Part shown: positions 9,194 through 43,131 of the stretch, in pieces
How the letters are laid out: the number at the start of each line of letters is the position of its first letter
Numbering within the stretch: position 1 is the first letter of the stretch
DNA from: a candidate division WWE3 bacterium GW2011_GWC2_41_23
Lineage (GTDB): Bacteria > Patescibacteriota > WWE3 > UBA101185 > UBA10185
NCBI GenBank assembly: GCA_000996895.1
Contig: LCBB01000006.1
Location: forward strand, 1-52,130
Length of the DNA stretch: 52,130 nt
Reading direction: 5' to 3'
Translations under genes and position numbers: made by a program
The notes under the pieces: generated by a model
Database searches by the model: none
Told to the model about the DNA's origin: nothing
The model's input: the letters and a program-made list of their open reading frames with translations, nothing else

Positions 9194-10381
9194 TTATTTC
9201 TGTCTTAAAAAAGTCGGGATATCGAATCCTGTGCCATAGTCTTCATCTTCCGCATCTTCCGGTTTCCACATCTCGGAGGGAAGTTTTGGTTGCTTTTTTT
9301 CTTCCGGAGGAGTTTCAGTCTGAGGTGCGCGGGGAATATTTTGTTGGAAAGGGATCTCAGGTTTCTCTTTTTTCGGAAGCTGGCCGTAATGTTTTTCTAC
9401 ATACCCTGCCATTGAATCATCCTCTTCCGGTACTTCAAACCCTGTTGCAATTACCGTAATCTTTAATTGTCCCGTCAATTCGTCGTCAATAGATGTTCCG
9501 AATATAATGTCCGCCTCTTCTCCGGCAATTCCCCTTATTATATTTGCTGCCCTGTCTACTTCTCTCATAGTTAGGTCGGGCCCGCCCGAAATGTTAAATA
9601 AAATTCCTTTTGCGCCTACAACTGACTGCTCTAGTAAGGGTGAAGAAATCGCTGCCTGTGCCGCTACCTCAGCTCTGTTTTCTCCGGTACCTATTCCGAT
9701 ACCCATCAACGCAGTTCCGGCGTCCTTCATAATTGCTTTAACATCAGCAAAATCAACATTTATGAGCCCCGGCATCACGATAAGATCCGAAATTCCTTGA
9801 ACACCCTGGTTTAAGACACTGTCCGATAGCCTAAATGCCTCGATGATAGACATATCTTCATCAGCTACCTCTAAAAGCTTCTGATTTGGAATCGTGATTA
9901 AAGCGTCGACTTCTTTTCTAAGCTCCATTATTCCCCTATCGGCTGCTCTCATTCTCTGTATGCCTTCAAAATTGAAGGGCTTAGTTACTACACCAATAGT
10001 AAGGGCGCCGGACTCTTTGGCAATGCGCGCCACGGTAGGGGAAGCCCCCGTTCCTGTTCCGCCACCAAGACCGGCTGTAATGAACACCATATTTGCCCCT
10101 TCCAGATTACTTTTTATTATATCCAAAGATTCTTCGGCGGCTTTTTTTCCTATTTCAGGATTTGACCCCGCCCCTAAACCCTGGGTTAGTTCCTGGCCAA
10201 TAGGTATTTTTATTACTGCTTTATTTATGGATAGATCCTGAGCATCGGTGTTTATGGCGATAAATTCAACACCTCTGATCTGATTTGAATCGATCATGGA
10301 GTTTATTACATTACCGCCGGCGCCTCCAACCCCGACAACTCGAATTTTTGCAAATCGTTCTATCTCTGGTTTAACTTGCAT
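9194..10381 (-). CDS. ftsZ: Cell division protein FtsZ
   Basis: Tubulin-like GTPase that forms the division ring. The 395 residues show VVGVGGAGGN near residue 16, the tubulin signature GGGTGTG at 106-112, and the T7 loop NVDFADVKAIM near residue 208. After a variable Pro/Glu-rich linker the extreme C-terminus reads GFDIPTFLRQK, a clean match to the conserved FtsA-binding peptide. It is the last dcw gene, 38 nt after ftsA, and has its own extended -10 overlapped by a palindrome, so it may be regulated separately. The ATG lies 6 nt after the -10. Confidence 0.97.
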   Translation of the reverse strand: MQVKPEIERFAKIRVVGVGGAGGNVINSMIDSNQIRGVEFIAINTDAQDLSINKAVIKIPIGQELTQGLGAGSNPEIGKKAAEESLDIIKSNLEGANMVFITAGLGGGTGTGASPTVARIAKESGALTIGVVTKPFNFEGIQRMRAADRGIMELRKEVDALITIPNQKLLEVADEDMSIIEAFRLSDSVLNQGVQGISDLIVMPGLINVDFADVKAIMKDAGTALMGIGIGTGENRAEVAAQAAISSPLLEQSVVGAKGILFNISGGPDLTMREVDRAANIIRGIAGEEADIIFGTSIDDELTGQLKITVIATGFEVPEEDDSMAGYVEKHYGQLPKKEKPEIPFQQNIPRAPQTETPPEEKKQPKLPSEMWKPEDAEDEDYGTGFDIPTFLRQK

Positions 10382-10419: not shown

Positions 10420-11676
10420 TTAGGGCAGGAAAGATTTTAATTTGTCAACAAACTTCGAAAAGCTTTTATTCATATTACCCCGTCTATCATCAAATGACAA
10501 CAGCTGGCTGCCTCTAAAGAGCTTAACACCATATAAAACAGCGCCGACTCCAGATGCAGACGAAGGACCTTGAATTTCATCAATCAGTCCGGTAACCCCA
10601 CGGGGAATTCCTAAACGTACGGGCATTTTCAAATTAACTTTTGCGCTTCTCTCAACGTTTGCAGTGAGGGCGCCACCGCCCGTGACAACAACTCCTGCTG
10701 GAAGCTTGCCGTTTAAATTAACTTTCGTGACTTCCAGTGCAATGAGACGGAATATTTCTTCAAGACGGGCGTCTAATATTTTATAGAGCATCTGTCTCGG
10801 AAGGCGGTCAATCTCAAGACCGAACTCTGAAACATCAAAATCCTCATCCTTTCTCACACTATCGACATTTTTCGAAAGAACAGCTTCGTTACTCAATCTT
10901 ATTTTAATCCTCTCGGCGTCTTCTAAACGTGATCTCAAACCAATCGCGAGGTCACTAGTTATAAGTTTTCCACCTATGGGCAACACCGCGGAATGAACCG
11001 GACTTCCGTCAAGAAACGCAATCATTGAGGTAGTACCGCCGCCTATGTCAACTAACAAAGTTCCGAGTTCCTTTTCGGTATCGGTAAGAACCGCTTCGGC
11101 TGACGCCAGTCCCGCATAAACCATCTCGTCAACGTTAACCCCAACCTGATTCACACACCTGGCAATATTTCTTAAAGCGATGGAAGCGCCGTGTATTATG
11201 TTTGTTTCGACCTCCAAACGCACTCCGGACATACCGACGGGGTCTTTGATACCTTCCTGAGAATCAATTGAAAAATCGCGGGGTATTACGTGAATGACTT
11301 GACGGGTAGACGGTAGAGACACCGCCTGTGCAGCCTCTATGACACGGGAAACATCTTCTTTGCTGATTTCATCAGTTTGATTGGGGGAAACGGCAACAAC
11401 ACCGTGGGAATTCAGGGTTTCGATATGGCTTCCGTTTATGGTTACAAACGCGCTGGATACCGAAACACCGGCCATACGCTCAGCTTTTTCGATACTGGCG
11501 GCAATTGCTTCGACCGCGCTATCAATATCTACCACATTTCCCTTATTTACGCCTTTAGAAGGTACTTCTCCTGAGACTCCTATTACCGAAACTCTTGATT
11601 CGGACACTGAAGCTATAGTCGTACCTACTTTGGTAGAACCTACGTCTATTCCTGTTATTATCTTTTCTTTGGGCAT
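10420..11676 (-). CDS. ftsA: Cell division protein FtsA
   Basis: Actin-like ATPase that tethers FtsZ to the membrane. The 418 residues show the phosphate-1 motif GIDVGSTKVGT at the start, the SHS2-type 1C insertion, the phosphate-2 motif LLVDIGGGTTSM and the adenosine motif VVVTGGGALT. The C-terminal SFSKFVDKLKSFLP is an amphipathic helix, as expected for membrane attachment. It is encoded 14 nt after ftsQ and just before ftsZ, the standard order. Neither a clear ribosome binding site nor a -10 precedes the ATG. Confidence 0.96.
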   Translation of the reverse strand: MPKEKIITGIDVGSTKVGTTIASVSESRVSVIGVSGEVPSKGVNKGNVVDIDSAVEAIAASIEKAERMAGVSVSSAFVTINGSHIETLNSHGVVAVSPNQTDEISKEDVSRVIEAAQAVSLPSTRQVIHVIPRDFSIDSQEGIKDPVGMSGVRLEVETNIIHGASIALRNIARCVNQVGVNVDEMVYAGLASAEAVLTDTEKELGTLLVDIGGGTTSMIAFLDGSPVHSAVLPIGGKLITSDLAIGLRSRLEDAERIKIRLSNEAVLSKNVDSVRKDEDFDVSEFGLEIDRLPRQMLYKILDARLEEIFRLIALEVTKVNLNGKLPAGVVVTGGGALTANVERSAKVNLKMPVRLGIPRGVTGLIDEIQGPSSASGVGAVLYGVKLFRGSQLLSFDDRRGNMNKSFSKFVDKLKSFLP

Positions 11677-11690
11677 AATGTGGTTAAAAG

Positions 11691-12542
11691 CTACTCATAT
11701 AATACTATTACTTTATCATAACGTAAATCAATTTTTATTACCGATTTGCCCTCAAGAAGCAAGGTTTTATAAAGTTTTTCAAGCTTCCAAACCGACTCCT
11801 TTATATCCTTCATATTGCTCAAATATACGTCCGTGGATCCTAAACGCAGCCTGGAGTATCTTTCTCTGAAGCTTATACTACTGATGTTCAAGCCGGCTTT
11901 CCCTACCTCCGAAAGGATTTCTATGCTAACAGGAACAACCTGCGCTTCTAAAAAGGCACCTACCCGTATTTCTCCTTCGTAAATAATCTCCGGAAGATTC
12001 ATAAATTCGTCGGAAACCTCGCCCAAAACATACCCCTCACTGTCTATTAAATAATGCACGGCGTCCTTTTTACCGGAAGTTACGACCGCTACAGGCACTC
12101 TTTCCTCTACTTTTATAACCAGAGCATCGGGGTAGTCCAACGATACTTCTACTCTTCTCGCCCCTAAAAAATTGTCTTTGAGTGTCTTTTTTAATTCCCG
12201 GGAATTTGTAGAAAAAATGCTCTGTCCTAAAACTTTTTGCTCGGAAATATTTTTAAAATCCTCCAGGTTAACAAACTTCCCGCCGCCGACAACAGAAACT
12301 TTTTTAACGGAAAATCTTGGACTTAGATAAATATACTTATAGGATAAATAACCAACGGCTCCCAAAACCAAAAAAATAACAAATATATTTATAAAAACTC
12401 TATATTTTCTGGCAAGGATGCGTGGGTTTTTTATTCCCCTACGACGGTTTTTTATTTTATTTAATAGAAGTTGATTACCGCTGGTTTGAACCGGACGCGG
12501 GTGCCTACTTGTTATTTCTTTGCGTGAGTTTATATGTTTCAT
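11691..12542 (-). CDS. ftsQ: Cell division protein FtsQ/DivIB
   Basis: Bitopic divisome protein. From the ATG at 12542 (283 residues) it has a basic cytoplasmic N-terminus, one membrane helix (about 49-68), a POTRA domain (about 75-145; FSVKKVSVVGGGKFVN) and an FtsQ-type beta domain ending in IKIDLRYDKVIVLYE. The start lies inside the murG 3' end (38-nt overlap), with no better downstream start; a TTG two codons earlier is also possible. Context between murG and ftsA supports the name more strongly than the divergent sequence does. Confidence 0.9.
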   Translation of the reverse strand: MKHINSRKEITSRHPRPVQTSGNQLLLNKIKNRRRGIKNPRILARKYRVFINIFVIFLVLGAVGYLSYKYIYLSPRFSVKKVSVVGGGKFVNLEDFKNISEQKVLGQSIFSTNSRELKKTLKDNFLGARRVEVSLDYPDALVIKVEERVPVAVVTSGKKDAVHYLIDSEGYVLGEVSDEFMNLPEIIYEGEIRVGAFLEAQVVPVSIEILSEVGKAGLNISSISFRERYSRLRLGSTDVYLSNMKDIKESVWKLEKLYKTLLLEGKSVIKIDLRYDKVIVLYE

Positions 12543-13620
12543 CTGCAATTATTTCTGCGGCGTTTAGATTTACTATTTCCGATGCTTCGCTGTTGTTAAG
12601 TTTATATTCTTGAAGGTGCCCCAATACTTTTGTGATTGTACCAAAAAATGTTTCTTCGGTAAGGTCATTTTCTTCTAAAATTTCGGCTAGACCGTACTTT
12701 TTTAAAATCAAAGCATTTTCTTTTTGTTCGTTATGGCTAACCCAAGGTATCGGGATCAAAACACAGGGCTTTTCCAAAGCCAGAAGCTCTGTAACTGTGT
12801 GGGCACCTGATCTGGATATAACCACCGACGATCTGTTAAACGCCTCGCCGATTTCATCATCCATAACAAATTTTCTCAGATAGAACTTACCATCTGCCAA
12901 CTCATCGGCTTCCCTGTAGATTGCCTCCAGCTGGTCGTAATCATTAAATTTTGAGTGATCTCCGCTTTGATGAATAACATTACATTTAGATAAAAGTTCC
13001 GGAAGTGCCTCTTTCACAACCTCATTTATAGTGTGCGATCCTGTCTTACCTGCAGTTATATAAATTGTCGGAAGATTATTATCTGAATTAAATGAATCAG
13101 ATCCGATTTCAAACACTGCCTTTCTGATTGGGACCCCGGAGTAAACTATTTTATTCGCAGGAAAAAACTTTTCAGACTCCTTCCAGCCAATGCATATTTT
13201 TTTCACAAATTTGGAAAGTAGTTTGTTAGCGTAACCTACAACAACCGTTTGCTCATGTGTAATTGACGGTATTCCCAGTAACCAACCGGAAATAACCGTG
13301 GGAACTGCAAGATAACCCCCGAACGAAAGAATAACATTCGGCTTAATTTTCAATAGCCACTTATACGCCTGAAAAAACCCGAACGGAACTCTAAGTAAAC
13401 TTATAATATTAAATGTTTTATATACTTTTCCCGCCCTGAGATCGTAAAAAGGTAAGTTGAGGGCGGTTATTTCCTTATATTCAAGCGAATCGTTTTTATC
13501 ACTTGCTGCGGCACGTCTGTGGCCGAACCAATAGATTTCGGTATCAGGGTATTTGGATCTGAAACGGTCGATAACCGGTAGTGCGGAGCTATGATGTCCT
13601 CCTGTAATTACTATTTTCAT
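12505..13620 (-). CDS. murG: MurG-like glycosyltransferase with altered glycine loop
   Basis: GT28 GT-B enzyme. MurG adds GlcNAc to lipid I to make lipid II at the inner membrane face. Family marks are SFGGYLAVPTVISG, HEQTVVVGYANKLL, the C-terminal RSGAHTVTELLALEKP loop with its conserved Glu, and NEQKENA. The N-terminal loop, however, reads GGHHSSALP (residues 7-15) where MurG normally has GGTGGHxxP, so the conserved loop His and two glycines are replaced. It overlaps ftsW by 4 nt (ATGA) and sits in the normal dcw position. Activity on a non-standard acceptor or donor is a possible reading. Confidence 0.88.
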   Translation of the reverse strand: MKIVITGGHHSSALPVIDRFRSKYPDTEIYWFGHRRAAASDKNDSLEYKEITALNLPFYDLRAGKVYKTFNIISLLRVPFGFFQAYKWLLKIKPNVILSFGGYLAVPTVISGWLLGIPSITHEQTVVVGYANKLLSKFVKKICIGWKESEKFFPANKIVYSGVPIRKAVFEIGSDSFNSDNNLPTIYITAGKTGSHTINEVVKEALPELLSKCNVIHQSGDHSKFNDYDQLEAIYREADELADGKFYLRKFVMDDEIGEAFNRSSVVISRSGAHTVTELLALEKPCVLIPIPWVSHNEQKENALILKKYGLAEILEENDLTEETFFGTITKVLGHLQEYKLNNSEASEIVNLNAAEIIADETYKLTQRNNK

Positions 13621-14783
13621 TTTGAGTTATCCTTCCCAATATTAGCTAAAATACCCAGTCCCATCAAACTGAAAACCATGCTTGAACCTCCGTACGAAAT
13701 TAAAGGAATGGGGACGCCGGTCAGGGGTAGCAGCTGCGTCATCGCGCCAATATTCACAAAAAATTGAAGTCCTATCCAAGAGGTAATCCCCGCCGCCAGT
13801 AGCCTGCCTCTTTGGGTTTTTGCATTTTTAGCTATTTCAAAACCCCTGTATATCAAATAAGAAAAGGCAACGATCACAAGAGCCGTGCCTAAGAATCCAA
13901 ACTCCTCTCCTATAATTGCAAATATCGAATCTGAAGCAACTTCAGGAAGATAATAATATTTTTGCCGTGATTGTCCGAACCCCACTCCAAAAAAACCGCC
14001 GGAACCGAGTGCGATTTGAACCTGCTTAATATGATACCCTTCTTTTCTGTCTGTATTGTCAAAACCCTTTAATTGAGTAAGCCATCTTTCTCGTCTGTAA
14101 GGAGAACTAAGTACTAACAAAATACCAAGCAGTAAGGCTGCCGGCGCAACCATCAATAAAGGTTTAATAGAAGCTCCTGAAGAGAAGTACACGATTGTTC
14201 CTATAGCTGCAATCATGACAGCAGTAGACATGTTCGGCTGGGCAATCACAAGTAAAAATATCAGCCCTGTCGCTACGGCGTACAAACTAAAAACGTTTTT
14301 GTTTTCCTGAGTTTTTTTCGGAATCATTATACCCAGGTACATTATTAATGTAAGTTTTGCCAGCTCGCCCGGTTGAAAACCTACAACTCCCAATATAGGC
14401 AGTTTTGGCAGGGGCGGGGCATTAAGATAAAACCATCTGTTAGCTCCGTTTATGCACGGGGCAAAAAAAATGTCAGAGGAACATGGCAACAAAGATACGA
14501 AAGCAAGTAATATCAAAAAAATAATAGTTACTCCGAACATAAAACCCGTAATCTTATCTATTTTCTTATAATCCTGGTTATAGAAAAAAAAGAACCATGC
14601 CAAACCGAGGAGAACCCAGCCAATTTGCAAAAATACAAACCTGTATGGGTCATTATAAAGACTATCGGAGTGAATTATCGTAGAATCGGCAATAATAATT
14701 ATTCCGAAAAGAAGAAATCCCAGTATCAGAAATACGAAAGATCTATCTTTTTTACTCATTGTGGGAACAGTTTTTGATTTCAT
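13617..14783 (-). CDS. ftsW: Peptidoglycan glycosyltransferase FtsW (SEDS family)
   Basis: Polytopic SEDS polymerase that links lipid II into septal glycan with its partner PBP. The 388 residues form about ten membrane helices and include GFQPGELAKLTLIMYL (Glu in the conserved QPxE region), an extracytoplasmic loop with YHIKQVQIALGSGG, EEFGFLG, and TGVPIPLISYGGSS near the C-terminus. A second in-frame Met at residue 9 is an alternative start. It follows mraY by 4 nt and overlaps murG. ftsI, its likely partner, is in the other half of dcw at 41.3-43.1 kb. RodA cannot be wholly excluded by sequence. Confidence 0.93.
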   Translation of the reverse strand: MKSKTVPTMSKKDRSFVFLILGFLLFGIIIIADSTIIHSDSLYNDPYRFVFLQIGWVLLGLAWFFFFYNQDYKKIDKITGFMFGVTIIFLILLAFVSLLPCSSDIFFAPCINGANRWFYLNAPPLPKLPILGVVGFQPGELAKLTLIMYLGIMIPKKTQENKNVFSLYAVATGLIFLLVIAQPNMSTAVMIAAIGTIVYFSSGASIKPLLMVAPAALLLGILLVLSSPYRRERWLTQLKGFDNTDRKEGYHIKQVQIALGSGGFFGVGFGQSRQKYYYLPEVASDSIFAIIGEEFGFLGTALVIVAFSYLIYRGFEIAKNAKTQRGRLLAAGITSWIGLQFFVNIGAMTQLLPLTGVPIPLISYGGSSMVFSLMGLGILANIGKDNSK

Positions 14784-14787
14784 AACA

Positions 14788-15873
14788 TCACATCAAAGCA
14801 ATGAAAATACCGGCAAAGGCGAAAAAAGCACCGAATAACCAGAATCTTAGCGTCACCTTTGTCTCCGGCCAGCCCAATAATTCAAAGTGATGGTGCACTG
14901 GTGCGAAACGGAACATTCTCTTCTTGGTAAGCTTAACGGAAAGCTGCTGGAGAGGGCTACTGATACCGTCAAATAAGAAAACCGCGCCAATTATGAGAAA
15001 GGCTACTTCCCTGTGTAGAAAAACTGCTAACAAAGCCAGAGTTCCTCCCAAAACGTGGGACCCCACGTTCCCCATAAAAATTCTTGCGGGATAAACATTG
15101 AAATATAAAAATGGCAAAAGCGCCCCCGCAAAAGTAGCGCAAAATATTGCAATTGAGTTGTACCCAAGCACCCGCGAAACTACCCAAAAAGAAATAAACG
15201 CGAACAGTGAAAGACCGCCCGCCAAACCATCCAGGCCGTCAGTAAAGGCTACTGCATTCAAAATAACTATGAATAGCAGAAAAACGATGACGGGATACAA
15301 AAAACCAATATGAACGTCCCCTATTAAAGGAAACCATAGATAATCCCACCCGAGCTTAAAATAAACCCAATAGGCGACAAAACCTCCGATTAAGCCCTGA
15401 ACAATAAACTTTTTGTAAGTCTGCATTCCACTTGCGTCCGTACTTCCTACGACACGCCAAAATTCTTTGAAAAGCTGCCAGGGTTTTAGGATTATCCGCG
15501 ACAGTCCCTTAGGTGCGGCGTTTTTCTTTTTAAAAAGACCGTGGAAATGATACTCAAAAAAACCCGGGAGTCCGGACTTTCTATAAACCTTTGTAAAATC
15601 TTCAAAAAGACCAAGTAGTCCCGCAATTAAAGCTACGAATATCGGTAATAGTGTTTGTGTACGGGAACGGTTAAATAGTAAGGTCAAAACTGCAACGACT
15701 GACACAAGAACTAAGCCTCCCATTGTGGGCGTACCCATTTTAAACAGATGGGTTTTGGGAGCATCTTCGCGCACTTCTTCCCCCATTTGAAATTTGTAGA
15801 CAAAATTTATCCAAACGGGATACAAAACGAAAGACAGTAATCCCGCAGCAAATAAAAATAATAAATCTAACAT
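14788..15873 (-). CDS. mraY: MraY-like phospho-sugar-pentapeptide translocase, altered acidic residues
   Basis: Transfers phospho-MurNAc-pentapeptide to undecaprenyl phosphate to make lipid I. The 361-residue membrane protein aligns along its length: GTPTMGG (48-53), NAVAFTDGLDGLAGG (about 206-220), APVHHHFELLGWPE (324-337). The usual DDxxK reads EDFTK (Glu91, Asp92, Lys95) and the usual MGDVGS reads MGNVGS (Asn269), changing two of the three acidic residues linked to Mg2+/catalysis. An insertion of about 40 residues follows the EDFTK loop. The ATG at 15873 overlaps the murA stop (TAATG) with AGGA upstream; a longer start at 15891 is less likely. Confidence 0.9.
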   Translation of the reverse strand: MLDLLFLFAAGLLSFVLYPVWINFVYKFQMGEEVREDAPKTHLFKMGTPTMGGLVLVSVVAVLTLLFNRSRTQTLLPIFVALIAGLLGLFEDFTKVYRKSGLPGFFEYHFHGLFKKKNAAPKGLSRIILKPWQLFKEFWRVVGSTDASGMQTYKKFIVQGLIGGFVAYWVYFKLGWDYLWFPLIGDVHIGFLYPVIVFLLFIVILNAVAFTDGLDGLAGGLSLFAFISFWVVSRVLGYNSIAIFCATFAGALLPFLYFNVYPARIFMGNVGSHVLGGTLALLAVFLHREVAFLIIGAVFLFDGISSPLQQLSVKLTKKRMFRFAPVHHHFELLGWPETKVTLRFWLFGAFFAFAGIFIALM

Positions 15874-17204
15874 TATTCCTGCTGACCCCATATTTTTGCT
15901 CCTAAATTTTTAAGCTTCGACGTAAAATTTTCCATATAACAATCTAGTACGTCTATGCCTTCTATCTCACTCCTGCCTTCAGCGATTAGAGCAGCTAAGA
16001 CATGCACGGCCCCGTACCTGAAGTCTGTGATGTTTAACTTCTCTCCTTTTAATTTTACAGGACCTGTAGTTTTTGCAACTGTATAAGGTTCTCCTAACCT
16101 CTCAACATCGTATGTATCGTCACCCACCACCGAAATCATTCCTGCCTCGGATGGTTTCAGAAGTTCAATTTTGGCACCCATCCTGTTCAAATCTTTTATA
16201 TACCCGAATCTGTCTGTGTAAACGGTGTCGTGTACGTATGCGATTCCGCTACATTGTGTCAAAAGCAAAGTTGCAGCCGATTGCCAATCAGGCACAAAGC
16301 CTGGGGTTGGAGCTATAGTAAGATTTGTAGCCTGAAATTCCTCGTCGTGTCTCCATATCTTTATAGAATTCTGCTCAAATTCATATCTTGCCCCGATTTT
16401 AGTAAAGAAATTTACTAAGGGAACCATCACGTTTCTATTTATATTCTTGATTACAACATTTCCTTTAGTTATTAACGCAGCGACTGCATAAATAACAGCT
16501 TCGGTTTTGTCCGGCTGCACTTCCAGAGAAGCACCTTTGAATACATTGACCCCGTTCACCTTGATAACACGGGGTTCTGAACGTACCACGTCCCCGCCCA
16601 TAGCATTAATCAAATCTATTAAGTCATCAATCTCACATTCCTCTGAAGCATTATTAATTTCTGTTTCGCCCGGTAAAAAAGCAGCAGTCATTATAAGAGT
16701 GTCGGTAGACATGTGACTGGGTATTTTAAAGTTAACGTGTCCGGAAACCGCGGTTGCCGAAGAAATGAAATAATAATCTTCATCTTCCTCAACCACAACA
16801 CCCAAACTCCTCCAAACATCCAATATTCTGTTCACCGGTCTTGGAACAGTAAGACGGGTTTTATATTTAGGGATAGAAGCTTTTCCGAACCTAAAAAGTA
16901 AAGGCGGCGCCATAAGTAAAGACGTCCTATACTTAGATCCCATTTCCAAAGGCACCTCATAAGAAGTAATTCCGGAACCGTTGAGAATAAGCCTCCCAGC
17001 TCCCGCCCAGTCCGCTTTTCCCCCGAGCACCCGAATCATTTTAATATCGTCCTCTATGGCATCCATTTTGGGAACATTTTGCAAAATAACGTCGTCGTTG
17101 GAAAACATCGCGGCGGCCATAAGTTTCAACGCTGAATTTCTTGTGCCTGAAACCTGAACAGTACCAAGTAAAGGAGAGCCACCCTCAATAATAACGGTAC
17201 TCAT
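15873..17204 (-). CDS. murA: MurA-like enolpyruvyl transferase lacking the catalytic Cys
   Basis: EPSP-synthase/MurA superfamily, 443 residues. MurA commits UDP-GlcNAc to peptidoglycan by adding enolpyruvate from PEP. Visible marks: VSGTRNSALK (Arg22-Asn23 where MurA has Lys22-Asn23), the PDKTEA and PDWQS segments (the latter holding the Asp305 equivalent), LNRMGAKIEL and DFRYGAVHVLAALIAEG (Arg397 equivalent). The active-site loop that normally reads PGGCxIGARPV is PKYKTRLTVPRPV (112-124), with neither Cys115 nor its known Asp substitute. It lies between secG and mraY in dcw. An inactive or altered-substrate MurA paralogue is possible. Confidence 0.85.
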   Translation of the reverse strand: MSTVIIEGGSPLLGTVQVSGTRNSALKLMAAAMFSNDDVILQNVPKMDAIEDDIKMIRVLGGKADWAGAGRLILNGSGITSYEVPLEMGSKYRTSLLMAPPLLFRFGKASIPKYKTRLTVPRPVNRILDVWRSLGVVVEEDEDYYFISSATAVSGHVNFKIPSHMSTDTLIMTAAFLPGETEINNASEECEIDDLIDLINAMGGDVVRSEPRVIKVNGVNVFKGASLEVQPDKTEAVIYAVAALITKGNVVIKNINRNVMVPLVNFFTKIGARYEFEQNSIKIWRHDEEFQATNLTIAPTPGFVPDWQSAATLLLTQCSGIAYVHDTVYTDRFGYIKDLNRMGAKIELLKPSEAGMISVVGDDTYDVERLGEPYTVAKTTGPVKLKGEKLNITDFRYGAVHVLAALIAEGRSEIEGIDVLDCYMENFTSKLKNLGAKIWGQQE

Positions 17205-26025: not shown

Positions 26026-26766
26026 GTGAAGCTCGGTGTTCTAAGTGTAAAGATGAGAACAATCGTTATAATGGTTTTGGTGATTTTTGTTCTTCTAGGC
26101 GCTTTTTATCTAGGCATGTATTACAGTAGTGTCAAATATTCACGTGAAATAGCACTCCTCGTAACGCAACTAGACACGAAGGCCGCGAATTTAGTCCGCT
26201 GCGCGCCATCACCAAAGGATCAAACATCTACAAGAAAGGTTGAGGAAACGCTCCAAACTTATACATCCAAAAAATTGGGGTTGAGCTTCAGCTATCTCCA
26301 ACCTAAAGAATCTCAAGGTCAGTGGGTTACAGAAGAAGCAAACGACACTATATCCATTTACTATCAACACCAGTCAGGCATCAAAACTTCGTCGAAATTC
26401 GTGCAGGTCTTTTACAAGGATGCGCAGCAAAGCCTAGAAGCTGCTATTAAAGAGCAACTGATGCAAAATTTTAGTGCCGAGGATTGCACCATAACAACAC
26501 CTAGCATGAGTTACAATCACGCTATATATAGCCCAAATAACGAATATTTGGTGATTAGGGTTGTGAACCAAAATGAAAATCACGAAGAATTCGTAAAACA
26601 GCTTGAAAAGTGCCCTAACACCTATACTTTCTCTTGGAAAGATAACGGATACTTTGTAACAGACAAGATGCACCAGGACAGGTTCGCGTATGTGAGTTTG
26701 GGACAAGATAGTATTTTCGCATACCCGGATGTTTCCTGGGATATGACTATCCGCTTCCTAGACTAA
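26026..26766 (+). CDS. Membrane-anchored extracytoplasmic protein of unknown function
   Basis: Not recognised. The 246 residues begin with a short basic stretch and one membrane helix (about 12-31, TIVIMVLVIFVLLGAFYLG). A soluble domain with mixed alpha/beta character and three Cys residues (RCAPS, DCTI, KCPN) follows. The start is a GTG 6 nt after TAGACT; an ATG nine codons later would still keep the whole helix. It stands alone between the divergent CHAP gene and the convergent PBP gene (4-nt overlap at the stops). With the CHAP gene it may be part of one inserted segment. Confidence 0.65.
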   Translation: MKLGVLSVKMRTIVIMVLVIFVLLGAFYLGMYYSSVKYSREIALLVTQLDTKAANLVRCAPSPKDQTSTRKVEETLQTYTSKKLGLSFSYLQPKESQGQWVTEEANDTISIYYQHQSGIKTSSKFVQVFYKDAQQSLEAAIKEQLMQNFSAEDCTITTPSMSYNHAIYSPNNEYLVIRVVNQNENHEEFVKQLEKCPNTYTFSWKDNGYFVTDKMHQDRFAYVSLGQDSIFAYPDVSWDMTIRFLD

Positions 26767-28961
26767 TCCGCTTCCTCAATCTTTTCAGCTCTTACTGTCG
26801 CAGGACACAAACTCTTAGGTACAACCGACCCCTTAATAAACACATCTGTTCTGCTGCATCCTTCATCCTTCTTAACAAACACTCCCGAAGGCATGTCAAA
26901 AATCTCATCGGCTTTTTCCGCCAAAACCTCGGACATAATTCTGTTCCAAATTGGTGCCGCTCCTGTTAATCCCGAGGCCATGTACTTATTCATCGGCTTG
27001 TTGTCGTTATTTCCCACCCACACCCCGACCGTGTACGAAGGAGTGAAACCGAAAGTCCAGTTGTCTTTTATTTGGTCCGTCGTCCCTGTTTTTACTGCTA
27101 TATGTTTGTCAGGGACGGTAAGAAAGTTTCTAGTACCGAAAGCCGGAAGTCTCGCCTGATTATCCGATAAAATGTGCCACATCAGATAGGACACCTCTTC
27201 CGATATTACCTGCCGGGGATAAACCTGCTTTTTCGAAAAAATCTCGTACCCTCTTCCGTCTCTTATGGAAATAATAGAACAAGGCTCGGCGTAGGCTCCC
27301 TTTCTCGCCAGTGTTGTGTAAACGTTAGCGAGATCCAGCAACCTTACTTCTTTTCCTCCAAGTGTGACTGACAAACCGTACGAACCGTCAACTTTCCAGT
27401 TGGTAAGCCCCATATCATGTCCTAAAGCCACTATATTATCGGGGCCTAATGCTTTGGCCACTTTTACCGCCGGTACATTATAAGAATTAGCCAAAGCACT
27501 TCTTAACGTAACATCTCCGTGGTATCTGCCGTCGTAATTAACGGGTTTATAAGATTCCGAACCGGGAGATTTATAAGTAATAGGCGAATCCTTCAAAATG
27601 GTCGCGGGAGTAAATTTATCAGCCAGCGCCAGCGAGTACGTGACCGGTTTTATAGACGAACCCGGCTGTCTGTAAGAAATTACAACATCGTAAGCTCCCC
27701 AGCCCGGAGCAAAATAATCCAATGAACCCACATAAGATAATATCTCAACATTTTTTACGTCGAGAACTACAGAAGCTCCGTTGGTAAAACCGTACTTTGT
27801 TCCTTTTTGAACTTCGTCAAAAATTATTGCTTCGGCTTTTTGCTGCAGCTTATAATCTAAAGTGGTTGTAACCTTCAGACCACCGCGGTTAACAAAGTTG
27901 CTGCCGTACATATTTTCCAGCGTTTGCCTGACATAATTTACAAAGTGGGGTGCCCCTATAAAATCTTTCTGAGGTGAGATATTCAATTCTTGGGAAAACG
28001 CCGCCGTTGCTTCCTCACTATTTATGTAGCCCAGTGAAAACATCCGGTCCAATACATATTTTTGTCTTTCCTTTGCTATACCGAGATCGTTTAATGGAGA
28101 GTAAAGGGACGGGGACGAAGGCAGACCTGCCAACATTGCGGATTCAGCTAAATTCAGTTCCCACGCATTTTTCCCGAAATATTTCTGAGATGCCGACTGA
28201 ATACCCCAGGCATTTCCGCCGTACGCAATGTTGTTGAGATACATTTCCAAGATTTGCTCTTTAGAATATTTGGCTTCTACCATCACGGATAAAACTGCCT
28301 CCTTAACTTTTCTAGAGAAAGTTCTTTCGGGGGTTAATAAAACATTCTTAACCAGCTGCTGTGTGATTGTCGAGCCTCCCTGCTTATCTCCGTCCATAAA
28401 TGTCTTTCTAAAAGCTCTGAGTATGCTGTCGGGCCTGAGTCCTCCGTGAATGTAGAAAAGTGAATCCTCGACCGCAATCGTCGCATCTATAGCGTTTTCC
28501 GGAATACGGTCAAGTTTAACCGGATCATATTTTTTATCTGCGTAGATTTCATAAAGTAGGACACCGTTGCGGTCGAGTATTTGTGTGGGTCCGTATTTCT
28601 GCTCAATTGTCAGCATTTCCGGGCTCGGTAATTCTTTAAACCAGGAGTGCACAACATAGGGAACAAACACAAACAAAAGCGTTATCAAAGCACCGAGCAG
28701 AAAGAGTCGGATTTTCTTAAAAATGCTGTTTAACAACGCCAACATAAACACCGGAATTTCTAAAATTCTTTTTACACTTTTTGGTATTTGCAAACGGGGT
28801 ACTTTTATTTTTGGAAATACAAAAAATAAGTGCTTCTTCTTACGTTTGATAACTTTTTTTATAGATTTATTTACACGGTCATGAAGATGGAGAAAAAAGT
28901 AGCCGAAGGTTTTAGGAAGTTTTAATAAGAATGCACCAATTTTAATTGGAGTGTTTAGCAT
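26763..28961 (-). CDS. Class A penicillin-binding protein (PBP1A-like)
   Basis: Bifunctional wall synthase, 732 residues. A long basic cytoplasmic tail (about 80 residues, rich in Lys/Arg) precedes one membrane helix (85-104). The GT51 transglycosylase shows AVEDSLFYIHGG (catalytic Glu165) and GGSTITQQLVKN. The transpeptidase shows GSSIKP (SxxK), SYNVP (SxN) and KTGTTD. A ~60-residue extension after KTG ends in a Lys/Glu-rich tail. A -10 TAAAAT lies 12 nt before the ATG. It complements ftsI and ftsW and shows that the organism polymerises and cross-links peptidoglycan. Symbol withheld because PBP1A-like paralogues are common. Confidence 0.94.
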   Translation of the reverse strand: MLNTPIKIGAFLLKLPKTFGYFFLHLHDRVNKSIKKVIKRKKKHLFFVFPKIKVPRLQIPKSVKRILEIPVFMLALLNSIFKKIRLFLLGALITLLFVFVPYVVHSWFKELPSPEMLTIEQKYGPTQILDRNGVLLYEIYADKKYDPVKLDRIPENAIDATIAVEDSLFYIHGGLRPDSILRAFRKTFMDGDKQGGSTITQQLVKNVLLTPERTFSRKVKEAVLSVMVEAKYSKEQILEMYLNNIAYGGNAWGIQSASQKYFGKNAWELNLAESAMLAGLPSSPSLYSPLNDLGIAKERQKYVLDRMFSLGYINSEEATAAFSQELNISPQKDFIGAPHFVNYVRQTLENMYGSNFVNRGGLKVTTTLDYKLQQKAEAIIFDEVQKGTKYGFTNGASVVLDVKNVEILSYVGSLDYFAPGWGAYDVVISYRQPGSSIKPVTYSLALADKFTPATILKDSPITYKSPGSESYKPVNYDGRYHGDVTLRSALANSYNVPAVKVAKALGPDNIVALGHDMGLTNWKVDGSYGLSVTLGGKEVRLLDLANVYTTLARKGAYAEPCSIISIRDGRGYEIFSKKQVYPRQVISEEVSYLMWHILSDNQARLPAFGTRNFLTVPDKHIAVKTGTTDQIKDNWTFGFTPSYTVGVWVGNNDNKPMNKYMASGLTGAAPIWNRIMSEVLAEKADEIFDMPSGVFVKKDEGCSRTDVFIKGSVVPKSLCPATVRAEKIEEAD

Positions 28962-41295: not shown

Positions 41296-43131
41296 CTAAT
41301 TTAATTGGGAAACCTGTGGATCGGGAATTCTGTCCGGCGCTATACCGTAAAACTTCACCAACTCAGACATTATATCCATCCACAAAGGAACGGATGTGAG
41401 AGATGCATAAACTGATGTTTTGGGCTCTTCAAGCTTAACAATCATAGAGATTTTGCGGTCTCCGGAAAGAAAACCCACAAAGGTTGCGTTTGTTTTATCC
41501 GCAGAGTACCCACCTTTCTCAGGTATCTGAGCTGTTCCTGTTTTTCCGGCTATTTTGTAATCTTTGAGAACATAAAACTTAGCTTCGCCGCTTACCGCTG
41601 CATTTTCCAGCATAGAAACCATTTCCGTAGCTGTTTCCTGTTTTATAACCTGTCTCAACCTCTTTGGGCGCACTTCAAGAATTTTCTTGCCGTCGTCAAT
41701 TTTTTCGATAATTAGAGGTTGATATAAAGTTCCTCCGTTTGCAATTACATTAAAGGCATTTAACACCTGAAGCGGGGTGGCGGAAATTCCTTGTCCGAAA
41801 GAAATGTTAGCTAACGTAATATCCGACCAATCAGAAATTGCAGGAATAACACCGGTGTCTTCCCCCTGCAGTTCTATCCCGGTTCTTTTTCCGTATCCGA
41901 AATTTACCAGGTAGGATCTTAGGTTCTCTGCACCTACTTTGTGCCCAACCCACGCGGCGCCAATGTTGTTAGAAAGCTCCAGAAGGCGTTGCACTGTAAG
42001 CACGCCGTGGTGTTTTAAATCCCAGTTGTCCACTTTATATCCTGAATAGTAAACGGGCCCTGCGTCTTCGTAAGTTGTTGTGGAGGATACCAAACCTAAA
42101 TCTACGGCCGTCGAAACCGTCATCGGTTTCATAACCGAGCCCGGTTCGTATGTCTGTTGTATTGAAAGATTCCTTCTTTCAACTTTTTTTCTAGTCTGCT
42201 CACCATCCGCGATTGTTTCCGAGTCACCCACTGAAAAATCGGAGGGATCGTATGTAGGATAGTTTGCCATGGCTATAACTTTTCCAGTGTAAGGATCCAT
42301 CACTATCACATTTCCTGAAACCGCGTCATATTTCTCTACACCATCTTTAATCATCCTCTCTACCATATACTGAACAGAACGATCTATTGTTAAAACGATA
42401 TTTCTTCCCGGAAGTGGGTTAGCTTTTCTATAACCTCCTGCCAAAATCGGGTTACCCGTAGCATCCCTCTCTTCAAGTATTCTTCCCATCTTGCCCTGTA
42501 AATCCTCATTTAAAGCTCCCTCAATACCGTAATACCCAGTCTTTTCACCTTTCTCGTCGCTGGCAACAAAACCTAAGACGTGACTTGCTAACGTTCCTTC
42601 GGGGTAATAACGTTTTGGCTCTTTTTCAAACCCGATTCCTTCAATTCCGAATTTTTGGATAGCTAGCATTTGCTCGTGAGATAGATTTTTCTTAAGGGAA
42701 ACCCAATACAGGTCTAAGTTCAGATTATCGAAGATGGATTTGTAGTAGTACTCAAAACCGGGCTTTAGCACAACCTCCTTAACTTCCTCGTCCTGAATAA
42801 CTTCAGGTTCAATTGAGGCTAAATATTCCGCTAAAATGTGAGCCGTCTGCGTTTTATTCTCAACAACCTTTGGCTCTCCGTACATAAGATAGTTATCTAC
42901 CGTTCCCGCTAACAAAAAACCGTCCGATGAAGAAATACTTCCCCGGCCGGCAGATATTTCCTGAACCGTCCAATATTGATCCTGTCCCATTTTTTCAAAT
43001 TTCTCATGTCCCAAAACCTGGATTTGAAATAGACGGAATATAACAGCTATAAAACCGACCAAAAATAAAACAATTAGGGAATTAAGCCGCAATTCAAGAA
43101 ATGCTCTTTTCTTTGTCCTCGTATTTTTCAT
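41296..43131 (-). CDS. ftsI: Division transpeptidase FtsI (class B PBP3)
   Basis: Cross-links septal peptidoglycan with FtsW. The 611 residues have a short cytoplasmic tail, one membrane helix (about 17-37), a PBP dimerisation region, and a transpeptidase with PGSVMKP (SxxK), LSNNIG (SxN) and GKTGTAQ. No C-terminal PASTA domain is present. It follows ftsL by 11 nt and is the last gene of the proximal dcw set. TAAAAT overlapping the ftsL stop lies 8 nt before the ATG, so an internal leaderless promoter is possible. Confidence 0.95.
   Translation of the reverse strand: MKNTRTKKRAFLELRLNSLIVLFLVGFIAVIFRLFQIQVLGHEKFEKMGQDQYWTVQEISAGRGSISSSDGFLLAGTVDNYLMYGEPKVVENKTQTAHILAEYLASIEPEVIQDEEVKEVVLKPGFEYYYKSIFDNLNLDLYWVSLKKNLSHEQMLAIQKFGIEGIGFEKEPKRYYPEGTLASHVLGFVASDEKGEKTGYYGIEGALNEDLQGKMGRILEERDATGNPILAGGYRKANPLPGRNIVLTIDRSVQYMVERMIKDGVEKYDAVSGNVIVMDPYTGKVIAMANYPTYDPSDFSVGDSETIADGEQTRKKVERRNLSIQQTYEPGSVMKPMTVSTAVDLGLVSSTTTYEDAGPVYYSGYKVDNWDLKHHGVLTVQRLLELSNNIGAAWVGHKVGAENLRSYLVNFGYGKRTGIELQGEDTGVIPAISDWSDITLANISFGQGISATPLQVLNAFNVIANGGTLYQPLIIEKIDDGKKILEVRPKRLRQVIKQETATEMVSMLENAAVSGEAKFYVLKDYKIAGKTGTAQIPEKGGYSADKTNATFVGFLSGDRKISMIVKLEEPKTSVYASLTSVPLWMDIMSELVKFYGIAPDRIPDPQVSQLN

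Follow-up and report, generated by a model that had tools for sequence, protein, structure and literature searches.

A peptidoglycan operon apparently reduced to the lipid stage, with a putative MurA pseudoenzyme, in candidate division WWE3

We analyzed a stretch of 52,130 nucleotides (positions 1 to 52,130 of contig LCBB01000006.1, assembly GCA_000996895.1; referred to below as the window) from the candidate division WWE3 bacterium GW2011_GWC2_41_23, whose genome (WWE3/Katanobacteria; 837 kb, 18 contigs) is 97% complete. The window carries a division and cell wall (dcw) cluster in the order MurA-MraY-FtsW-MurG-FtsQ-FtsA-FtsZ, as a first-pass annotation of the sequence had described it, and our subject is the MurA-like protein at its head (MurA1), which looks like a catalytically dead MurA, together with the peptidoglycan pathway in which it is embedded. 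Comparisons were made with 27 genomes of the WWE3 family (f1) and 45 of the class, and include a complete chromosome (CP006914.1, our genome G001) and a contig recorded as complete and curated (G012); residue numbers and motifs refer to alignments with the Escherichia coli K-12 proteins. The genes of the cluster are as follows, the first two overlapping by 19 bases.

15873..17204, minus strand: MurA1, MurA-like putative pseudoenzyme, 443 amino acids (PF00275 1.5e-49; PRK09369; TM 0.95)
14788..15891, minus strand: MraY variant, 367 amino acids (TIGR00445, 222 bits, above cut-off)
13617..14783, minus strand: FtsW (PF01098 2e-84; TIGR02614, 289 bits)
12505..13620, minus strand: MurG, 371 amino acids (PF04101, PF03033; TIGR01133, 176 bits, below cut-off)
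11691..12548, minus strand: FtsQ (POTRA_1 5.6e-8)
10420..11676, minus strand: FtsA (from position and direct reading of the sequence)
9194..10381, minus strand: FtsZ (from position and direct reading of the sequence)

MurA1 belongs to the MurA family by its PF00275 match and by a score above the cut-off of the broader PRK09369 subfamily, and falls below the TIGR01072 cut-off (327.6 versus 392.7 bits). Three positively charged residues of MurA, namely K22, R120 and R397, hold the phosphonate of fosfomycin (PMC4790336). At these positions, the phosphoenolpyruvate (PEP)-binding triad, the window protein has R22, R120 and C422, and the R120 retained by MurA1 of the window genus is the only triad member left there. 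The GG(C/D) loop with Cys or Asp at position 115 is also missing, and the residue at that position varies across the WWE3 family. Arg22 and the lack of a Cys115 equivalent, both noted in the first-pass annotation, are thus confirmed by alignment, and the loss of R397 is to be added to them.

17130..17147, minus strand: MurA1, K22 replaced by Arg (GTRNSA), N23 kept
16830..16868, minus strand: MurA1, former Cys115 loop (KYKTRLTVPRPVN, KYKTRLTVPRP), with no Cys or Asp, two residues longer than its E. coli counterpart
15933..15950, minus strand: MurA1, R397 replaced by Cys (VLDCYM; C422 of the window protein)

The columns that are fixed in canonical MurA and lost in the MurA1 family (K22, P112, G113, G114, C115, G118, R120, R397, G398 and Y399) cluster on the PEP side of the enzyme, while N23, E188 and D231 are invariant and R91, D305 and R331 are mostly kept. 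Loop 113-121 ranks at the 98th percentile of conservation in canonical MurA but at the 1st in the MurA1 family, although the MurA1 protein as a whole is more conserved than the canonical set. R397, replaced by C, N, D, E, K or Y, is lost in all WWE3 MurA1 sequences read over that column, with two exceptions: that of genome G015, and that of G006, whose gene (L044:6393-7675) is broken into two overlapping frames with R397 still in the second half. The AlphaFold model of MurA1 has a confidence (pLDDT) of 92; this drops below 50 at residues 119-121 of the former loop, and most of the other weak positions are at the C-terminus. A Foldseek search matched the model to MurA structures, including 1uae, at TM 0.95. 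The ratio of nonsynonymous to synonymous rates (dN/dS) is 0.023 and 0.031 in the only two pairs with measurable dS, and MurA1 adjoins MraY in 25 of the 25 family loci readable for both (frames -39 to +23 bases apart, usually overlapping); the low ratios and the retention beside mraY rule out a decaying pseudogene. With the PEP-binding triad and the catalytic loop lost, enolpyruvate transfer is not expected, and MurA1 looks like a conserved, apparently non-catalytic member of its family.

In whole-genome searches, the dcw MurA1 proved to be the sole EPSP-family protein of the host, which has one MurG and one MraY plus a 501-amino-acid WecA-like PNPT protein (L074:5586-7091, with WGFGAM at the expected MGDxGS site); the idea that canonical copies lie elsewhere in the genome is therefore not sustained. 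The annotation placed murB-F and ddl outside the window, which is correct, and profile searches of the whole host genome found no MurB (MurB_C), MurC-F, Ddl, Alr or glutamate racemase either. Its only Mur-ligase-domain protein, considered as a substitute for MurC-F and rejected, is MurT, which adjoins GatD. The same absences were found in CP006914.1, which has no Mur ligase besides MurT, and searches of G012 found no MurB, MurC-F, Alr or glutamate racemase and returned two weak Ddl-like ATP-grasp matches (G003 has one). In the 20 family genomes of high quality (at least 90% complete, at most 5% contamination), MraY and MurG are present in 20/20 and MurJ in 19/20, MurB in 2/20, Alr in 3/20 and glutamate racemase in 1/20, and none of the 20 has a recognizable MurC, D or E. 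The same profiles readily detect MurB and four ligases in sister families.

Besides MurT, the sole ligase in the family assignable to MurC-F is a MurF-like protein found in a few genomes (L131:1491-2705, L132:1122-2594, L133:1787-3112, L135:1014-2210 and L137:1167-3377, the last, from G024, fused to an alpha/beta hydrolase-like domain). Uncharacterized proteins of 430-450 amino acids at L130:757-2058, L134:129-1424 and L136:1169-2512 match the Mur ligase middle domain only (Mur_ligase_M) and are conserved among three WWE3 genomes; such Mur_ligase_M proteins are present in G003, G016 and G023. Frames of 1341-1346 amino acids at L079 (G027) and G035:C25 contain three Mur ligase middle domains each and are apparently fused Mur ligases. 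The single-contig genome G048, from another family of the phylum and rated 100% complete, has MraY, MurG, MurJ and one weak Mur-ligase match, and no EPSP protein or MurB was found in it, so the lipid-stage-only pattern may extend beyond WWE3.

The host genome keeps MraY, MurG, MurJ, FtsW, MurT/GatD and penicillin-binding proteins (PBPs) with intact motifs, and MraY, MurG, FtsW and MurA1 are all under strong purifying selection in the genus. The two PBPs of the window retain the SxxK, SxN and KTG transpeptidase motifs, in agreement with the first reading of the sequence:

26763..28961, minus strand: class A PBP (PBP1A family), SSIK/SYN/KTGT intact (TIGR02074, 519 bits; PF00912, PF00905)
41296..43131, minus strand: FtsI-type class B PBP, GSVMK/SNN/KTGT intact (PF00905 8e-66; PF03717)

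MurT and GatD are recognized by the MurT_C domain, their adjacency, the Cys and His of GatD, and the NDN, DGRD and SWIYD motifs of MurT. Next to gatD-murT lies a Wzy_C/O-antigen-ligase-like membrane protein (L072:3834-5051) that scores just below the Pfam cut-off.

MraY and MurG depart from the E. coli proteins at the following sites.

15589..15603, minus strand: MraY, EDFTK replacing DDxxK (D115E)
15058..15075, minus strand: MraY, MGNVGS replacing MGDVGS (D267N)
13576..13605, minus strand: MurG, TGGHHSSALP, retaining TGGH in a glycine loop that lacks two residues relative to E. coli

Both MraY substitutions had been reported in the first-pass annotation and are borne out by the alignment: the protein scores above its family cut-off and has the HHH motif and TDGLDGL, it reads NAVAFTDG instead of NAVNxTDG, and its catalytic aspartates D115, D116 and D267 read E, D and N. 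The B. subtilis MraY mutant D231N keeps a small residual activity (PMC4902027). The WWE3-type MraY presumably uses the normal precursor, judging from relatives that have it together with MurB and four Mur ligases. For MurG, the proposed replacement of GGTGGHxxP by GGHHSSALP was mostly a slip of register, since the best alignment sets --TGGHHSSALP against GGTGGHVFP and so keeps TGGH; the shorter loop is real, and HEQT for HEQN is a genuine additional change. MurG has the TGGH of the first glycine loop, GGY, HEQ and the Glu of the UDP-GlcNAc site, and TIGR01133 remains its best-scoring family even though it falls below the cut-off (176.4 versus 250.25 bits).

The MurA Cys and R397 losses and the MraY and MurG motifs recur in three congeneric genomes, including the complete chromosome CP006914.1, which rules out sequencing error. 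The changes in the three enzymes are not joint, because their distributions differ. The class members examined have the short MurG loop, also where their MurA is standard. MraY ED/MGN is common to families f1, f2, f3 and f9 (AGN for MGN in f9); G040 and an atypical family member, G009, have ED with MGD; and within f2/f3/f9, genomes G027, G028 and G035 combine ED/MGN with four Mur ligases, MurB and Ddl. The MurA change is found within the WWE3 family only: the MurA of its first branch, G015, retains both R397 and the loop PGGCKIGPRP, and the remaining WWE3 MurA1 proteins form one group (SH-aLRT 97 in a quick-method tree, in which the divergent EPSP proteins of G009, G027, G029, G031 and G033 are meeting long branches whose placement we did not use). 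On this sequence evidence, the catalytic residues of MurA1 were lost inside the WWE3 family, after the G015 branch. MurA residues have also been lost independently in G030 and G037, two genomes that encode MurB and a further MurA. Thus the pathway is indeed non-standard, and the suggestion that three consecutive enzymes had co-evolved to a modified precursor is not supported; likewise, the MurA and MraY substitutions are fixed across the WWE3 family, as had been envisaged, but their distribution does not support co-inheritance.

We consider it somewhat more probable than the reverse that the operon serves only the lipid stage of peptidoglycan synthesis and includes a MurA repurposed for a non-catalytic task, with the precursor coming from elsewhere or from unrelated enzymes. 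MurA1 retains the MurA fold and part of the substrate pocket and would carry out no enolpyruvate transfer; its role beside mraY would most likely be to bind a UDP-sugar or to support or regulate MraY/MurG as a scaffold or regulator. No standard enzyme of the cell would make the soluble precursor (UDP-MurNAc-pentapeptide in the usual pathway), which would come from a partner cell or from unrelated enzymes, and the UDP-MurNAc-peptide would be bound with the help of MurA1 and then loaded onto lipid by MraY. MurG would add GlcNAc, MurT/GatD would amidate, MurJ would flip the product, FtsW and PBP1A would polymerize and FtsI and PBP1A would cross-link the lipid II-like unit; the steps that follow precursor supply and MurA1 binding are assigned from the families of the proteins and, for those examined, from conserved motifs. 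In its most specific form the proposal is tentative, with a probability well short of even: WWE3 would build a cross-linked peptidoglycan-like wall from a partner-derived UDP-MurNAc-peptide or equivalent, using lipid-stage enzymes only, with the pseudo-MurA receiving or regulating the precursor at MraY.

Several observations weigh against this interpretation. K160 and H125 are not conserved in MurA1, and D305 and R331 have exceptions; dS is saturated in most MurA1 pairs, leaving the selection estimate to two pairs and low dN. A MurF-like ligase or Ddl-like ATP-grasp proteins remain in some family members. The absence of glutamate racemase is weak evidence, because it is also missing in the well-equipped relatives G027, G029 and G036, and MurT/GatD is no proof of a D-Glu stem peptide, because MurT is missing in 7/27 family genomes and the pair is also found in some archaea (PMC11915815). 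G015 (87% complete) keeps the canonical MurA residues, yet MurB, Alr and Ddl were not found there, so that MurA decay and MurB-F loss appear as separate events. Finally, six family genomes have a second, Cys-bearing MurA (MurA2), three of these with MurB, and MurA1 may have decayed behind it. The MurA2 type (GGCVLGKRS; L050, L046, L056, L058, L067 and L069, with relatives in f2, f4 and f5) keeps Cys115 and R397, carries Gly in place of R331 and, in most cases, G-I-Q in place of D369-R371, and adjoins MurB in G016, G018 and G036.

Alternatively, unrelated or highly divergent enzymes that escape the family profiles could make ordinary peptidoglycan, with MurA1 as a bystander or regulator. Other WWE3 members do have MurF-like, MurA2-MurB or Ddl-like ATP-grasp proteins, G003, G016 and G023 have the uncharacterized Mur_ligase_M proteins, and MurT/GatD with intact PBPs implies a peptide-bearing substrate; we nevertheless judge this explanation unlikely, as the profiles that easily find MurB and four ligases in sister families, when applied to the complete genome G001, find no MurB and no ligase but MurT. 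We give a slightly lower probability to a neofunctionalized pathway, in which MurA1 would be an active transferase whose chemistry is new, and a modified precursor (a nucleotide sugar or a lipid-linked one) would serve as the substrate of MraY, MurG and the PBPs. The differences from E. coli in the MraY catalytic and MurG acceptor-side (HEQT) residues, the strong purifying selection on MurA1 and the absent MurB-F route would all fit such a change, but few parts of the family's protein are as poorly conserved as the former Cys loop, and no new conserved residues have appeared there, which disfavors new transferase chemistry at that site; R397 has given way to six different residues; and the MraY/MurG variants are shared with relatives that have MurB and four ligases and presumably use the normal precursor. 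That the operon is a relic in cells without peptidoglycan synthesis, kept for cell division or another glycan (capsule or S-layer anchor), would account for the lost D-amino-acid enzymes and Mur ligases and is very improbable given the purifying selection on MraY, MurG, FtsW and MurA1 in the genus, the retention of MurJ and MurT/GatD, and transpeptidase motifs in both window PBPs that another glycan would not need.

MurA, the target of fosfomycin, catalyzes the step that commits the cell to peptidoglycan synthesis. If the interpretation of a lipid-stage module is correct, a dead MurA selected beside mraY in cells lacking MurB-F would show that this protein can have a second, non-catalytic role. 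Annotation-only surveys may score WWE3 genomes as makers of UDP-MurNAc, because murA, mraY and murG are annotated in them. General statements in the literature are that genomes of the candidate phyla radiation (CPR) carry peptidoglycan genes, complete in some (PMC13293708, PMC7143001); our results sharpen the observation that such genes are frequent into a question, namely where a cell with MraY, MurG, MurJ, FtsW and PBPs obtains its precursor. Our literature search found no description of a pseudo-MurA or a lipid-stage-only pathway in WWE3 (an earlier mention is still possible), and a Mur pathway cut down to the lipid stage with an embedded pseudo-MurA is, as read from genomes, apparently new.

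Among known systems, the MurT/GatD lipid II amidotransferase (PMC6113224, PMC6085368) shares with the WWE3 pair adjacent subunits and conserved signature motifs; the WWE3 MurT is shorter (381 versus 437 amino acids) and has no other Mur ligase beside it in the genome. In the mosaic pathway of mealybugs with Tremblaya and Moranella (Bublitz 2019, as reviewed in PMC7154730), a symbiont wall is made with parts of the precursor pathway in the partners; there the partner genes are known and, in that account, the sacculus has been seen, whereas in WWE3, a CPR bacterium, partner and polymer are hypothetical. With MurA itself, MurA1 shares the fold (TM 0.95 to 1uae), length, N23, E188, D231 and mostly R91, D305 and R331, and differs in its broken K22/R120/R397 triad, its variable loop without a catalytic Cys or Asp, and its score below the TIGR01072 cut-off. 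The mycobacterial CwlM is a pseudoenzyme regulator of the Mur pathway derived from an amidase; both proteins appear to be dead enzymes of wall metabolism under selection, MurA1 being derived from MurA. The Asp-type MurA of Chlamydia, Mycobacterium and Borrelia (PMC4790336) has in common with MurA1 a natural replacement of Cys115, but there Cys gives way to Asp in an enzyme that stays active, whereas MurA1 has lost the entire loop and R397.

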